In this document: piece by piece, positions 53,371 to 64,000 of the stretch
How positions within the stretch are numbered: the stretch's first letter is position 1
How the letters are laid out: every line of letters begins with the position of its first letter
Assembly (NCBI RefSeq): GCF_000702725.1
Contig: NZ_JNJI01000002.1
Location: 186,001-250,000, forward strand
DNA: 64,000 bases
Source: Mesoplasma photuris ATCC 49581
GTDB lineage: Bacteria; Bacillota_I; Bacilli_A; Mycoplasmatales; Mycoplasmataceae
Direction: 5' to 3'
Position numbers and translations under genes: made by a program
The notes under the pieces: model-generated
Databases searched by the model: none
What the model saw: only the letters and a program-made list of their open reading frames with translations
Told to the model about the DNA's origin: nothing

Positions 53371-54579
53371 ATGGCAGAAAATAAAAACAACACTGGAACA
53401 GCAAAAATTCAAATTAAAAAAACAGTCAAAGTTACAGCTTTAAATGGTGCAGAAATTAAACCTAAAAAAGATGAAAAAATTGTTGATGAAAAAATTGAAA
53501 TTGTAGCACCAGAAGCAGAAGTAATATCTAATGTTGATAAGTCAGCTAAAAAAGAAGTTTCAACTAATGAAGTTTCTAAAAAAACAGTTCAAACAACCGA
53601 ATCTAAAAAAGTTTCTGAATCTAAAAAAGAATCAAAAATTAAAGAATCTACAAAACCTAAAAAAGAATCTAGAAACAAGGAAGATTTCGATGTTTATGAT
53701 GAAAACCGTGAATACATCGTTGTTGAAGATACTGAAAAATACGAAGAAGGAATTAAAGGCGTAAAACAAAAAATGAAACGCCAAAAGCAACTTACTTCAA
53801 AATACTCAAAAGACATTTTAGAAGGTAAAATTATTACTACTGAAAACTATAAACCAGAAGTTTCAAAACATGTAATTGAATTAAAAAATGTTAAAAAATC
53901 ATATGTTAATGGTGATTTAGAAACAGCTGTTTTAAAAGGTATTGATATTAAATTAGAGCAAGGTGATTTCATTGTTATTCTTGGACCATCTGGATCAGGT
54001 AAAACAACATTCTTGAACATCATTTCAGGATTAGACAAATCAACTATAGGAGATGTATTTGTTTTAGGTTCAAATCTTTCATTATTAAAAGATTCACACT
54101 TAACAAAATTCCGTAGAAGAAACGTTGGATTTATTTTCCAACAATATAACCTATTAACAAACTTAACTGCTAAAGAAAATGCTGAAGTTGGAGAAAACCT
54201 TTCTTCAGATAAAGACTCTGGAATGACAATTGATGAAATCTTTGAAACAATCGGTATGGAAGAACAAAAAAATAAATATCCACACCAAATGTCAGGGGGA
54301 CAACAACAACGTGTTTCTATTGCACGTGCGTTAGCTAAAAACCCAAACATTTTATTCGCCGATGAACCAACTGGTGCTCTTGATGAAGAAATGGGAAGAA
54401 AAGTATTAGAAATCTTAGTTAAAGTTAATAGAGAATACAAAACAACAGTTGTTGTTGTTACTCACAACCCAAACATCGCTACAATCGCTAATACAGTTAT
54501 TCATATTAAAAACGGATTAATTGATCAATTACAACACAATGCAAATCCAGCTGATCCTTCAACAATTGACTGATCATAA
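53371..54579 (+). CDS. MacB/LolD-type ABC transporter ATP-binding protein with long charged N-terminal extension
   Basis: A 402-residue protein. Residues 1-165 are Lys/Glu-rich and low in complexity, with repeated KKESK-like motifs, probably disordered or coiled coil. The ABC ATPase follows: Walker A LGPSGSGKTTF (about 205), VGFIFQQYNLLTNLTAKENA, signature MSGGQQQRVSIARAL and Walker B ILFADEPTGALDEE, exactly the LolD/MacB type that pairs with FtsX-like permeases. The likely partner is the giant permease at 57699-63098, three genes away. Mechanotransmission or lipoprotein/peptide export is inferred. Confidence 0.9.
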
Positions 54580-56013: not shown

Positions 56014-57519
<1,506 letters not shown>

Positions 57520-57539
57520 TTAAAAATCTAATAATTTTA

Positions 57540-57573
57540 AAAATCATCCAATAAATTATGGATGATTTTTTTT
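57540..57573 (+). terminator. Intrinsic terminator of lysS
   Basis: An 11-bp stem (AAAATCATCCA and complement) with an 8-nt loop and T tract. It isolates the following permease gene from upstream transcription. Confidence 0.85.
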
Positions 57574-57623
57574 GTCTAAATATTAGTCAAATATAGCTTT
57601 TTTTAATAAAAAACACCTTTCAC

Positions 57624-57660
57624 TTGACGGGGGGGGGGGGGGGTATATTAATAGTATCTT
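57624..57660 (+). promoter_or_regulatory. Candidate phase-variable promoter with a run of 15 G
   Basis: A good -35 box TTGACG (57624-57629) runs into an uninterrupted tract of 15 G (57629-57643), followed at once by TATATTAATAGTATC, in which TATTAA (57646-57651, spacer 16) or TATATT (57644-57649, spacer 14) can serve as -10. Gain or loss of G by slippage during replication would change the spacer and turn the promoter up or down. The ATG of the permease follows at 57699 with AGGGGAG upstream. G runs this long are not expected by chance in so AT-rich a genome. Confidence 0.65.
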
Positions 57661-57698
57661 AATAAATAGTTTTCTTAAAATAGGTAGGGGAGTTTTGC

Positions 57699-60600
57699 AT
57701 GAAATTAAATTGATTAATGTTTAAACAAGGTTTTAAAAGTATGTTTAAACAAAAAATACAATTTTTTGTAGTTATATTACTTACCTTTTTAGCCATCTTC
57801 TTTTTCACAACAACTAATGCGTTAACTATGAGATTGAATCAAGCATATGATAGAGTTGTTGCGAATTATGAAAAATTTGATTACACATACACAAGAAAAA
57901 CCGATGAAGGACAACTAAGTTCTTCTAATATGGCTTTTATTCCAATCTTAGACTTTGTTCCAGATCAAAATAATTACATATATGATGCTAAAACTGGCAA
58001 ACAAGGTTTTAGTTCTTTTAACTTATTGTTAACTAATCATTATGGTACTGAATATGACACATTTATAACAAAAACTTTTGAAAGTCAGGATTTTAAAGAT
58101 CTTATAGTTGGTGATTTTGATGGTACTTGAAATGATACTTCTCAAATTTTTAAATCATATTCGAGTTATTTTGTTTCAACAACAACATCTGAAAGTAGAT
58201 ATAATGGTAATTCTGCAATATTTGATTATTCAAAAGGAATAAATAATTTTGCAGAAGAAGCTCGTTATGGAACAGAAAACGCAAAAGTTTTTGCTGGTAG
58301 ATTAACCTTGCTTCTTTTTAATAATTTAAGAATTGAGTTATCAAATCCTTCTGATAACTTTAAAAAATCTCTTTTTTATAAAAACTGAATTAAAAATAAA
58401 TATCAATTAATTGAAAGTGCTTCTGACGGAAAATATGGTGTTATTGGGACAATTGATGATATATCTGATTATTCAAAAGGAAATTATAATGAAATTGAAA
58501 CATATACTTTAAATGCATTAGAATCAGTTTCATATTTTGTTATCGAAGAAATGAAAAACTTTTTTGTATCAGGTTTTAATCAAAATATGAAAGAAGTCAC
58601 AGATCCATTAAAGAATAAATCAAAGATGACTGATAAAGAAAAAATTGAAATATTTTTAGAACAATATAACACAGCTGCTCAAAAAAACCACACAACCAAA
58701 TTATATGAGGTTTCTTACAACGGTAAAGGAAATCAAAGAGGTGTCACAGCTAATGTGATAAAAGATAACAATAAATTATTTTATGAATATTTAACAGGAT
58801 TGCCTTTTGATGACGGAAAACCAACCAATAGTAATTTTATTGTCAAATCATCTGAAAATTCTGAAAAATATTTATTTAACGGATCAACTTCTGAAATTAA
58901 AGATTATAAAAAGACTAACAACCCAATCGCTGATGGATTACGTGGAGTTGCAAATCCAATTCTTAGAGAAGAATCTTGAAACCAAGAAATTCCCTTGGCA
59001 GGTCTAAAAAGCAACAATAGAACAAATGCACTAGAAAAACTGGGAGTAGGTCAAAAATATGAGTCAGAATTTAATGGTAAAAAATATAATTATGAAGAAC
59101 GAGATTATTTAAGTAAAAGTATATATTCGATGGATATGATGCACCAAGAAATGGCAGCTGATCAAGCAGGTCTTGAAATTTTAGCTCGTGAAGAAGCTTT
59201 TATGTATGATAAAAACTCAAAAACTAATTTTCGCTTTGTAATCATTGATGATAAAGAAAAATTTAATTATGAAATCATGGCAGGATTACCAGCCATGGCA
59301 TCAAATGAAGTTGTTATTTCGCAACAATTCGCTTTCAAAAATGGATACTCAGTTGGGGATAGAATAAAAATTGGAAATTTATATTTTCTTATTTCCGGAT
59401 TTGGTGCTGACGCATTAACATATTATCCAATGGTTGATCCTGAAATTGCAGTATCAGATATTAAAAACTCAGTTATTGTTTATTCTCCAAAATCAGTTTT
59501 AAAAAATATTATGGATGCTGGTAATGAAAAAGATATTACATTCTCAACCATGTTTTTCCTAAATGATAAAGATAGTTCAGCTTCTGAAGAAGAAACAAAT
59601 TTTAAATCTTTAAAATTTGAAGCACTTTTACAAAACGATAAAAGTAAATTACAAAAATTATATATGTTAGGAAATTATGAGGATAGTTCAGAATTTAAAG
59701 ATTTCAAAGGAATTAACAAAATTAAAGATTTTGAAGAAACAAACTTTAATCTAAATTGAACACTTCAACCAACTATTATAAATGTTGTTACAATAATCTC
59801 CTTAGTTACTTCAATTTTTATTTTAATAATGGCATTTACAACGATTGTTTTTGCGATTAAAAAATCAATTGATAATAATTCAAACCAAATTGCTTATCTG
59901 AAATCAATGGGTACAAATTCTTATAAAATTTCATTATCTTATTTAGGGTATGCAATAATTATAGGACTTATCGTCATTCCAATCGCTTGAGTTGGAGGAG
60001 GCTTATTTCAGGAAGTTTTATCTAAAATATTTTCAACATATTTCTCTTCAACACTTTATGAGTTTGTTTTTGAACCGAAAGTTATAATTTTATTACTAGT
60101 ATTGATTGGTGGTGGAGTACTACTATTTTCATATTTGATTGCATTGTATTTAACAAGTCGAAGTATAGTAAAAATTAAAAATCCAACAAGTAGATTTTCT
60201 AATTTTAAAAAAATAAAATTACAGGCAAAATTTATAGCAAGACTATCGTTCTCATTTAAGTTCCCTGTAAAATTAGCAACTAGAGGTTGGAAGCAGATTT
60301 TTATGATAACTGGTGTAACGTTTATTTCAACGGTTGTCATAAGTATTTCCGCAGCCCTTCCATCAGTTTTAGATGTTTATATCAAAAATGCTACTAAGTA
60401 TTTTAATTACCAAAATACATATACAATGAATCAACCGATTGTAAACTTACCAACTTCTAGACCTTCATTAAATTCTTGAGAAGGATTACCAACAACAGAA
60501 AACATTTATATTGATCCAATAAAATATATTGAAGGGTTTGATGAAAATGGAGATCTAATAAGTTCTTTTAAAGAAGCTACTGATATCTATTTTAATAACA

Positions 60601-63098
60601 TTAAATACTACAATGATTCAGTTGCAGACAATAGTATTTATCCACTAATTATGGGTGATGCAAATAACCCACAGTGGTTTGAAGAATTTATACTTTCAAA
60701 TGATGTTCCTAACGGAGAGCTACCACCAGAGTTAATATTCGAATATTTAATGCCTTTATTAGGACACATAATTAACTTTAATGGTTCTGCTCTTGCTCCT
60801 GGTTCATTTGAAAGAATTAATAATTACTTTTGAAATGCAAATATTGATCCAACAACCGGATTGCAATATGACATAGAAAATGAATGAGATAGAAAATCTG
60901 AACAAGTAAAAAATGCTGGTGCTTTATTTAATGAAGTGCTACCATTACTGATTGATTTTATTAAAGACACACCATTTGGTGAAGGTATTGAAATTCCTGA
61001 ATCAACATCATGAAAAGAATCATTAATTTTATTAGCAATGTCGTTATTACCAAATACAGGACAGCAATTTTTAAAAGATTCTCCAAATAAAGCTTCTCAA
61101 TTTGTAATTGGTTTAAATGTAGAAAATTATACCCCCGGAAAAGAAACGTTAGCTACAGATTTAATTGCTAATGTAGGTACTGATAATCAAGAAATGTCAA
61201 TCATCGGAACAAAAGCTGGTCAAACAATTTATAAACTAGATGAAATTTCTAATGAAAATCTTAATGGAACTTTCATCAAAGATGGTGACACAATTTCTAA
61301 TTTAGAAAAACTTTTTGAATCTAATGGAGATTACCAAGGACCTGTAATTAAAACTTCAAATGGATTTGTAATTTATGATCCAAATAAACCCGATACGTTA
61401 AATATTCCAGCAATTACGAATTTAAAGTCCGAAGCTGAATATGATTTAAAGAATGGTAATTTTATAAATTCCATTGCTAATGCTAGTTTAAAAATAGCAA
61501 ATGAAAAATTTATCCCAACGAATGCTTGAATTTATGACAATAGAGAAATTACACAAAATAAAAACCCAGAAGTTAGAGAAATGTTTGGTAAACAATCAAG
61601 AAAAATCAAAACATCCATTAATGGAGATTGAATCAAAGCATCAGATATTGATCCAAATAAAATAACTCACTCAAAAGAATTTGAATTTCAAGAAGATGAA
61701 ATTGCAAGCTTAGATTCTCCATTTTCAAATGAAGCTTCTTGATTCATTAGTACCGATTTAATTAATAATGATATATCAGCAGAAAGTGTTTATTATGAAT
61801 TAAGACCATATTATCACTACAACAATTTAAAATTATTTATACCGACTGAATTAGAAGAAGCCGCAAACTTACTAGTTGGTAATGGTAACCCAAACATTCA
61901 TAATGATAAAAATTTGGATTGAACAAAAAATGCTCGTACATGAGCTGGTACAAATGTAGATTATGCTAATGTTCCTGAAATAGTTCAAGATGCTTGAGGT
62001 GAAGAATATAAAGATCAAACATTCACATGGATTGCTCCATTTAATTTAAACTTTAGTTCAAAACAATTTGGTACTATTGATAGTCTTTCAGATGTTGGTC
62101 AAGCAACTTTCTGAGCAGACCAAGCAATTCGTTCAACTGGTACAGGTATTACAATTGAAGTAAATGAGCAATTACCAGAATTTTTAAATCATGTTAATAT
62201 AAAATCTTTACAATCCGTAAATACTTATAATGGTGATTTTACTTTAGTTGATCAAGACATTTTAAACTTATTAACTGGTAGATCTATTTCTAAATATGTT
62301 CCTGTTGATTATGATTTTTATGGAGAACAGTTAAGAACATTACAAGGTACAAATCTACCAAGCGATTTAAAAATTCCAGTCTTTGATATGAAGACGCCAA
62401 AAGAACTTGTAGATGAATTAAATAATTCTAAAACTTTCTATATGGAAGATGAATTAATTAAGCAAGGATATGAAAATCCGTTTGATTATGCAATGCAAAA
62501 TAGAGATTTCACTCAAAAATATTCAGCTTATACTGAACCATATGGAATCACGGGTGGATTTAAAGGGGTTCTTAAAGATACTCCAGGTATCTTTGCTGTT
62601 CAAGGAAAAGGTGCTGGAGCTGAATCTATGAGTCGTTTATCAACTCTATATAATAGAGTTGAACTATCTGGAACAGAGTTAGGATTTATTATTACAATAT
62701 CTGAATCTATAATGGCAATTAGTATATTCTTAATTATTGGTGTTATTTTAATAGCAATTATAATTATTTCAATTATGGTAGATGTTTATGTAATGATTTA
62801 TCAAAGATTTATTGTTACAATGCGCGCTATAGGATATGGAAAAAAACAAATTATCTTAAATACTTTAGGAATATCTTCTGTAATTGGATTTATTTCTATA
62901 TTTGGAGGATATGCCTTAGGTATTTCATTAATATCGGGATTATTAACTTTACTTCAAGGATATGGAGTTTATATACCGATGCTAATTTATTGATGAATTC
63001 CACTAGTTGTAATAAGTGGAGTATTATTAATGTTCATAGTATCATTTATACTATCGTCTATTAAACCTTTTAGAATTAAACTAACAACACTAATGTAA
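57699..63098 (+). CDS. Giant FtsX/MacB-type ABC transporter permease
   Basis: A 1799-residue membrane protein. One helix lies near residues 22-38, then a large extracellular domain of about 650 residues, then helices near 694-718, 749-770 and 794-820. A second module has a helix near 866-890, an extracellular domain of about 770 residues, and three C-terminal helices (about 1661-1700, 1717-1755, 1757-1788). This double 1+3 pattern is that of LolC/MacB/FtsX permeases of two modules. The two external domains are far larger than the family norm. The matching ATPase is probably the LolD-type protein at 53371. The promoter carries a G tract, so surface exposure may be variable. Confidence 0.85.
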
Positions 63099-63106
63099 GA
63101 AATTAC

Positions 63107-63150
63107 AAATTAAAAATCTACCCTGTTTATAATGGGTAGATTTTTAATTT
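63107..63150. terminator. Bidirectional intrinsic terminator
   Basis: A 17-bp perfect stem (AAATTAAAAATCTACCC and complement) with a 10-nt loop between the permease gene and the convergent gene ending at 63144. Confidence 0.85.
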
Positions 63151-64000
63151 GTTCTAGTAAAGTCTTCGATAATATATTTTAATTCTCCAGCTTTTGTTGA
63201 ATTATATAAAGCTGCATCTAATCTTAAAGAAACTTCATAACTATGTGGATTACTATTTTCATCAAAGTATTTAATTTGATACTTAATTGATGAAGGTTCA
63301 TCTGAATTTGCTAAATTGTCAAAAGCTAATAACTTAGTTTCTCAATTTCTATAATTTAAATATTCAATTGATTCTTCATCACTAGATTTTGGTCAAGCAG
63401 CAACAATAGTATCAATCACAGTTTTAATGATTTTGAATAATCCTTTAATTAAATCTCCAGATTGTCCATCATATAAAGTTGATAATGCTTCACCGATTCC
63501 ACCAGGTACTCATTTACCTTTCTCAATTCCTAAAAGATAAAATCCAGCTGCAGCACCTTTGAATGATTTATTTCCATTAGTATCTTTTAACGTATATCCC
63601 GAGTAGGTACTATCAGTTAATTTAAGACCCAAAGCAATTTTAGTTATACCTTTTTCCTCTCCTGTTCCTGTATAACCCATGAAGTTTCTTAGATCTACCT
63701 TAGTATCTAATGAATTGGTAATTGTAATTGTGTTTTCATCGACTGTTTCACCGATTACACTTAAAATATTTCCAACTTTTAAAGCCGTTTCAGGTAAATC
63801 ACCAATAAATGTTAATAAAACATTTGCAATATCAGCAATTGAAACAATACCACCTATTTTCATATTCAATAAATCTGAAAGGTTTTTAACATCTTCAGGA
63901 AGTTCTAATCCAGGAATTAATCCTTCGATTAACGAAAAGAATTCTTCACCTTCATAAATTGCTGAAATAGGTTTATTCATTAGTGGTGGTATTTTTGACA
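63144..64000 (-). CDS. C-terminal part of a large secreted or lipoprotein-like protein
   Basis: At least 285 codons on the minus strand; the start lies beyond the window. No membrane helix is visible. Segments such as FFSLIEGLIPGLELPEDVKN, ISAIYEGEEF and LYDGQSGDLIKGLF resemble the paralogous lipoproteins of Mesoplasma and Spiroplasma, perhaps the MOLPALP family, but I cannot confirm this without the N-terminus. The position next to a possible exporter permease suggests a surface protein (inference). Confidence 0.5.

Follow-up and report, generated by a model that had tools for sequence, protein, structure and literature searches.

A poly-G promoter spacer before a double-FtsX permease gene, one of six probable phase-variable promoters in a mollicute genome

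The vlp promoters of Mycoplasma hyorhinis carry a poly-A spacer. In Treponema pallidum, the promoter of tp0126 contains a poly-G tract between its -35 and -10 elements, and experiments described in PMC7864442 show maximal transcription at a spacing of 17 bp. The porA gene of Neisseria meningitidis behaves alike, with a G-tract spacer between -35 and -10 and graded expression (PMC3899988 and PMC7864442). In Mycoplasma agalactiae, poly-G lies in the 5' untranslated region of the spma lipoprotein genes, and its role in transcription is stated to be unknown (PMC2824730).

We find a comparable arrangement in the window (the whole 64-kb stretch of DNA analysed here), in front of a very large permease gene. 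The features of this locus are:

53371 to 54579, plus strand: ABC ATPase, candidate partner of the permease
56014 to 57519, plus strand: lysS, the upstream neighbour
57539 to 57570, plus strand: intrinsic terminator of lysS with a 12-bp stem, an 8-nt loop and a T run (-12.9 kcal/mol, z -3.3)
57598 to 57623, plus strand: conserved upstream element of ~26 bp, TTTTTTTAATAAAAAACACCTTTCAC, an UP-like T-tract/A-tract plus CAC, common to six tract promoters
57624 to 57629, plus strand: -35 hexamer TTGACG, whose final base starts the tract (TTGAC precedes the tract at six of six sites)
57629 to 57643, plus strand: homopolymeric tract G15, putative variable promoter spacer
57644 to 57649, plus strand: putative -10 hexamer TATATT, adjoining the tract (spacer 14 at G15, 17 at G18) and found in the same place at three tracts with an assembled downstream side
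57682 to 57692, plus strand: ribosome-binding site AGGTAGGGGAG
57699 to 63098, plus strand: ABC-type permease of 1799 aa with two FtsX cores and two large extracytoplasmic domains

The terminator separates lysS from the permease gene, which therefore needs its own promoter. The 1799-codon frame is read with TGA as Trp, and its ATG (57699) lies 55 bp 3' of the tract. PF02687 matches the protein in two stretches (2.2e-14, 54 bits compared with a cut-off of 25.5), and hydropathy places the extracytoplasmic domains at approximately residues 47-688 and 898-1659. With FtsX core domains and an extracytoplasmic domain, the product has the make-up of an FtsX-type ABC permease, in agreement with the earlier note, which had described such a permease with two huge extracellular domains. 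That note had also placed a run of 15 G between TTGACG and a -10-like sequence, with spacers of 14 or 16; we confirm the run at 57629-57643 and the spacers for TATATT (14) and TATTAA (16). Its statement that only the membrane part of the transporter would vary is unproven, as is the partnership with the ATPase at 53371: the genome yields 23 ABC-ATPase-like matches, and a second permease, 73% identical to the first, has no tract.

The G15 tract is the sole homopolymer longer than 8 within the window, where the second-longest runs of G and of C are 5 each. A first-order model built on the dinucleotide statistics of the window gives an expectation of 6e-7 for G runs of 15 or more across the 779-kb genome; a second-order model gives 7e-9. 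We reject a chance origin of the tract, which is far beyond these expectations.

A G10 search of the 10 contigs of the genome, four small ones of which consist of N, returned seven places, and after reading of the contig ends these resolve into six distinct runs of 13-21 G in 779 kb (given as contig and position):

C2:243629 (the tract in the window): G15, FtsX permease
C4:96314: G15, 1283-aa protein
C4:99893: G13, 229-aa lipoprotein
C7:8306: G18, membrane-anchored protein of 351 aa, with a similar one of 450 aa after it
C2:26: G21, upstream half only
C6:1: at least G14, upstream half, cut by the contig end

The permease tract had been regarded as a single switch, a view that is not borne out, as it is one of six equivalent sites. 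All six tracts are on the coding strand, and a gene start follows 55-100 bp downstream where it is visible. Four products are lipoproteins or signal-peptide proteins, one is membrane-anchored and one is the 1799-aa double-FtsX permease. The C2:26 and C6:1 tracts continue at the ends of C4 and C7, where each downstream half runs into a lipoprotein gene (287 and 285 aa); which upstream half belongs to which downstream half is ambiguous because the downstream flanks are identical. Joining C2:26 and C4:100983 into one tract was rejected, since the contig ends show two paralogous tracts with identical downstream flanks. The assembled lengths vary by site (13, 15, 15, 18 and 21, in a draft assembly whose homopolymers may be off by some bases); all are pure, and the -35 side is conserved. 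Elsewhere in the genome we count three runs of 7-8 G, all inside coding frames, and none of 9-12 G except one tract cut at a contig end. The distribution of run lengths is bimodal, with ordinary short runs and switch-like tracts. The 1283-aa protein (C4:92402-96253) contains 15 copies of a ~66-aa repeat and has a signal-like N terminus in which the lipobox Cys is replaced (VISYSS). A Pfam search with the proteins behind the other tracts, including this repeat protein, found no family above cut-off.

Long G runs may also be false, arising from two-colour sequencing chemistry or from assembly. Runs of G21-G46 placed exactly at contig ends occur in several other genomes of the order and are typical of such artefacts, and four contig ends of the present genome also fall within tracts. 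However, four of the tracts lie within contigs and are flanked by unique sequence on either side, the same motif precedes all six, and the contig breaks are explained by a 128-bp identical repeat after two tracts. Given the internal tracts and the common motif, we reject an artefactual origin, the probability of which appears negligible.

The six sites share a promoter cassette as well as a tract. When aligned on TTGAC, the upstream sequences have an information content of 34.3 bits, compared with 16.7 ± 1.6 bits for shuffled rows (11 SD above). They have in common a T-tract at approximately -25 to -22, AA at -15/-14 and C-R-C directly before TTGAC, such that CRCTTGAC is found immediately 5' of all six tracts (in one case as TTGACAC). 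The pattern TWYCRCTTGAC has six matches in the genome, all with a tract; as it was derived from the six sites themselves, what it adds is that the cassette never occurs without a tract. On the downstream side, TATATT adjoins the tract at three sites and TAATCT is present at the duplicated junction, and each would reach the 17-bp optimum at G18. The C7 site is irregular (TTGACAC-G18-ATTACACTATATT), with spacers of 21 or 26 to -10 candidates. Among the 26 other genes in the window, TATAAT occurs within 70 bp upstream in 12, and TTGAC within the same distance in none. Ordinary promoters thus appear to lean on the -10 element, whereas the tract promoters seem to combine a strong -35 with a weak -10 and should therefore depend on spacing.

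All six sites have a pure homopolymer long enough to slip (13-21 G), a -35 and a -10 element can be recognised on either side of the tract (irregularly so at the C7 site), and the products are of surface type, their exposure being inferred from lipoprotein or signal-peptide N termini, a TM anchor and the FtsX permease. Judged by its sequence, the set is a strong candidate for membership in the porA/tp0126 promoter-spacer class. It resembles T. pallidum in the involvement of a surface protein gene and in having several poly-G genes per genome (tp0126, tprE/G/J/L), but T. pallidum is a spirochaete with shorter tracts (7-11 G in tprL), and the available text of PMC7864442 reports no shared TTGAC cassette for its poly-G promoters. 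porA differs as a single gene that encodes a Gram-negative outer-membrane porin. With vlp the present set shares, by description, the mollicute host, the set of surface lipoprotein genes and a promoter-region tandem repeat (PMC3899988, citing Yogev 1991). The vlp family, however, is defined by poly-A spacers and size-variant lipoprotein genes in one cluster and includes no permease, whereas the present tracts consist of G and are scattered across several contigs. The Vmm-type system of the Mycoplasma mycoides cluster is similar in that one mollicute genome has a promoter-region repeat at several scattered lipoprotein genes (PMC3053259), but its repeat is the dinucleotide TA. spma is confined to one locus of a distant mollicute, and the pattern TTGACNN(G)10 is found in none of the 319 other genomes of the order and thus only in the present one of 320. 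Unusual here are the six sites with one cassette, the occurrence in one species among these 320 genomes and the giant FtsX permease as a target.

The upstream T-tract/A-tract element common to the six sites may be bound by a regulator or by the alpha-CTD, and a run of 15 G can in principle form a quadruplex. Both would fit a G tract that is a fixed protein-binding site or DNA-structure element (G-quadruplex, A-form) of a shared regulator and whose length switches nothing. Such a site would not need 13-21 uninterrupted G residues that differ in number from site to site, the tract is located exactly where the spacer must be, and pure long homopolymers slip, more so without MutS. We consider a fixed site improbable. 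Phase variation might also work by moving an upstream activator or UP element closer to or farther from the promoter, and not through the -35/-10 spacing, with the active -10 further downstream. Additional TAnnnT hexamers do exist, for example TAGTAT with a spacer of 22 in the window and TAGCAT with a spacer of 23 at C4:99905, and upstream repeats acting in this way are described in PMC6258824 for the vlhA GAA repeats at approximately -40. Yet these hexamers are not common to the sites, whereas TTGAC is invariant at the tract and TATATT adjoins it at three of them, which leaves a downstream -10 an equally small chance.

Promoter-spacer phase variation by slippage of the G tract is very probably the best explanation for the permease tract and for the set. 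The earlier note had proposed this for the permease, and its reading is strongly supported by the recurrence at six sites, the constant position relative to TTGAC, the shared upstream element, the surface or membrane nature of the genes that are visible, the lack of such tracts at other places in the genome and the absence from relatives. In the proposed mechanism, the G tract would form the spacer of a sigma-70-type promoter. Replication slippage, uncorrected without MutS, would add or remove G residues and thereby change both the spacing and the helical phase of the -35 TTGAC relative to the -10 TATATT. Efficient initiation by RNA polymerase would require a spacer close to 17 bp (G18 here), and the permease would be on, dimmed or off in individual cells. 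We could not find MutS in the genome with a search that detects it in 11 of 14 control genomes; long pure homopolymers should slip in a cell that lacks it. The cassette (T/A-tract element, CRC, TTGAC, G-tract, weak -10) would act in the same way before five further surface-type genes, and six independent switches could generate up to 2^6 surface states. We infer slippage, length-dependent transcription and promoters that are OFF or weak at the lengths sequenced: the assembled spacers of 12, 14, 14 and 20 bp are off the 17-bp optimum, and by the spacing rule of tp0126 and porA the culture that was sequenced is predicted to have had weak or silent promoters. Three additional G residues would bring the permease promoter to its optimum.

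G13 also occurs in 15 further genomes from the order. Of these, the runs that were read are either isolated, positioned at the end of a contig, or part of a coding sequence, for example a signal peptide. In other mollicute genera, G13 is located inside the start of lipoprotein-like coding sequences, as in a frameshift-type rather than a promoter-type switch. The G21-G46 runs exactly at contig ends come from four other draft genomes and are likely sequencing artefacts. A coding-tract (frameshift) reading was rejected for our six sites, as frame-type poly-G cases were seen in other genera only.

Three congeners have no permease at the lysS place, and there rpsF follows directly 3' of lysS. In the present genome, the lysS-rpsF interval contains permease 1 with its tract, a lipoprotein gene on the opposite strand and permease 2, the 73%-identical copy without a tract, just outside the window (C2:251666). 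The lipoprotein (807 aa; 63144 to 63998 in the window, minus strand, continuing as C2:249144-251567) is divergent from permease 2. It is homologous to lipoproteins paired with the same permease in two other genera (E values of 1.5e-43 and 8e-15). The permeases of these divergent lipoprotein and permease pairs are 42% and 35% identical over their full length, and the tract is absent there. No close permease homologue was found in a contig search; the 42% and 35% ones came from a whole-genome search. As permease 2 keeps the lipoprotein-permease layout without a tract, permease 1 seems to have gained its tract promoter, which is hence derived. Although the two lipoproteins encoded at the ends of C4 and C7 share only 58% amino-acid identity, their genes have the same 128 bp behind the tract. 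This suggests that the promoter region has recently spread or been converted. We tentatively propose, with slightly less than even confidence, that a dispersed and recently spread cassette, moving by recombination, has placed six or more surface genes, a duplicated FtsX transporter among them, under independent phase variation in a single mollicute species, with no known relative sharing the trait.

An exact scan of the species collection for TTGAC(G)10 yielded at least 117 stretches in many phyla. The matches listed were collapsed to 58 moderate- or low-GC assemblies, and among these 17 have a near-consensus -10 at a spacer of 14-20, compared with 4.9 expected from shuffles (maximum 10 in 300 shuffles); no such excess is seen in the 58 assemblies at spacers of 21-27. 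Among the matches listed, this points to poly-G spacer promoters in several phyla. In the Bacilli MAG Lapin-012 bin22 and in a Clostridium MAG, TTGAC(G)10 is followed by TATTATATAATATAATA or a similar sequence. The downstream genes in several gut Bacilli and Clostridia MAGs among the matches listed encode N-terminally anchored surface-type proteins. These appear to be independent poly-G promoter sets of gut bacteria, and the occurrence of TTGAC-poly-G-TATAAT-like promoters in unrelated bacteria suggests repeated independent evolution of the switch.

Poly-G tracts near lipoprotein genes have already been noted in mollicutes, with their role left open. The six loci offer a clean test of the spacing rule. 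If our reading is correct, the mollicutes would also have a multi-gene switch built on poly-G promoters, and an ABC permease of the transport type would be among the genes controlled by a stochastic surface switch.
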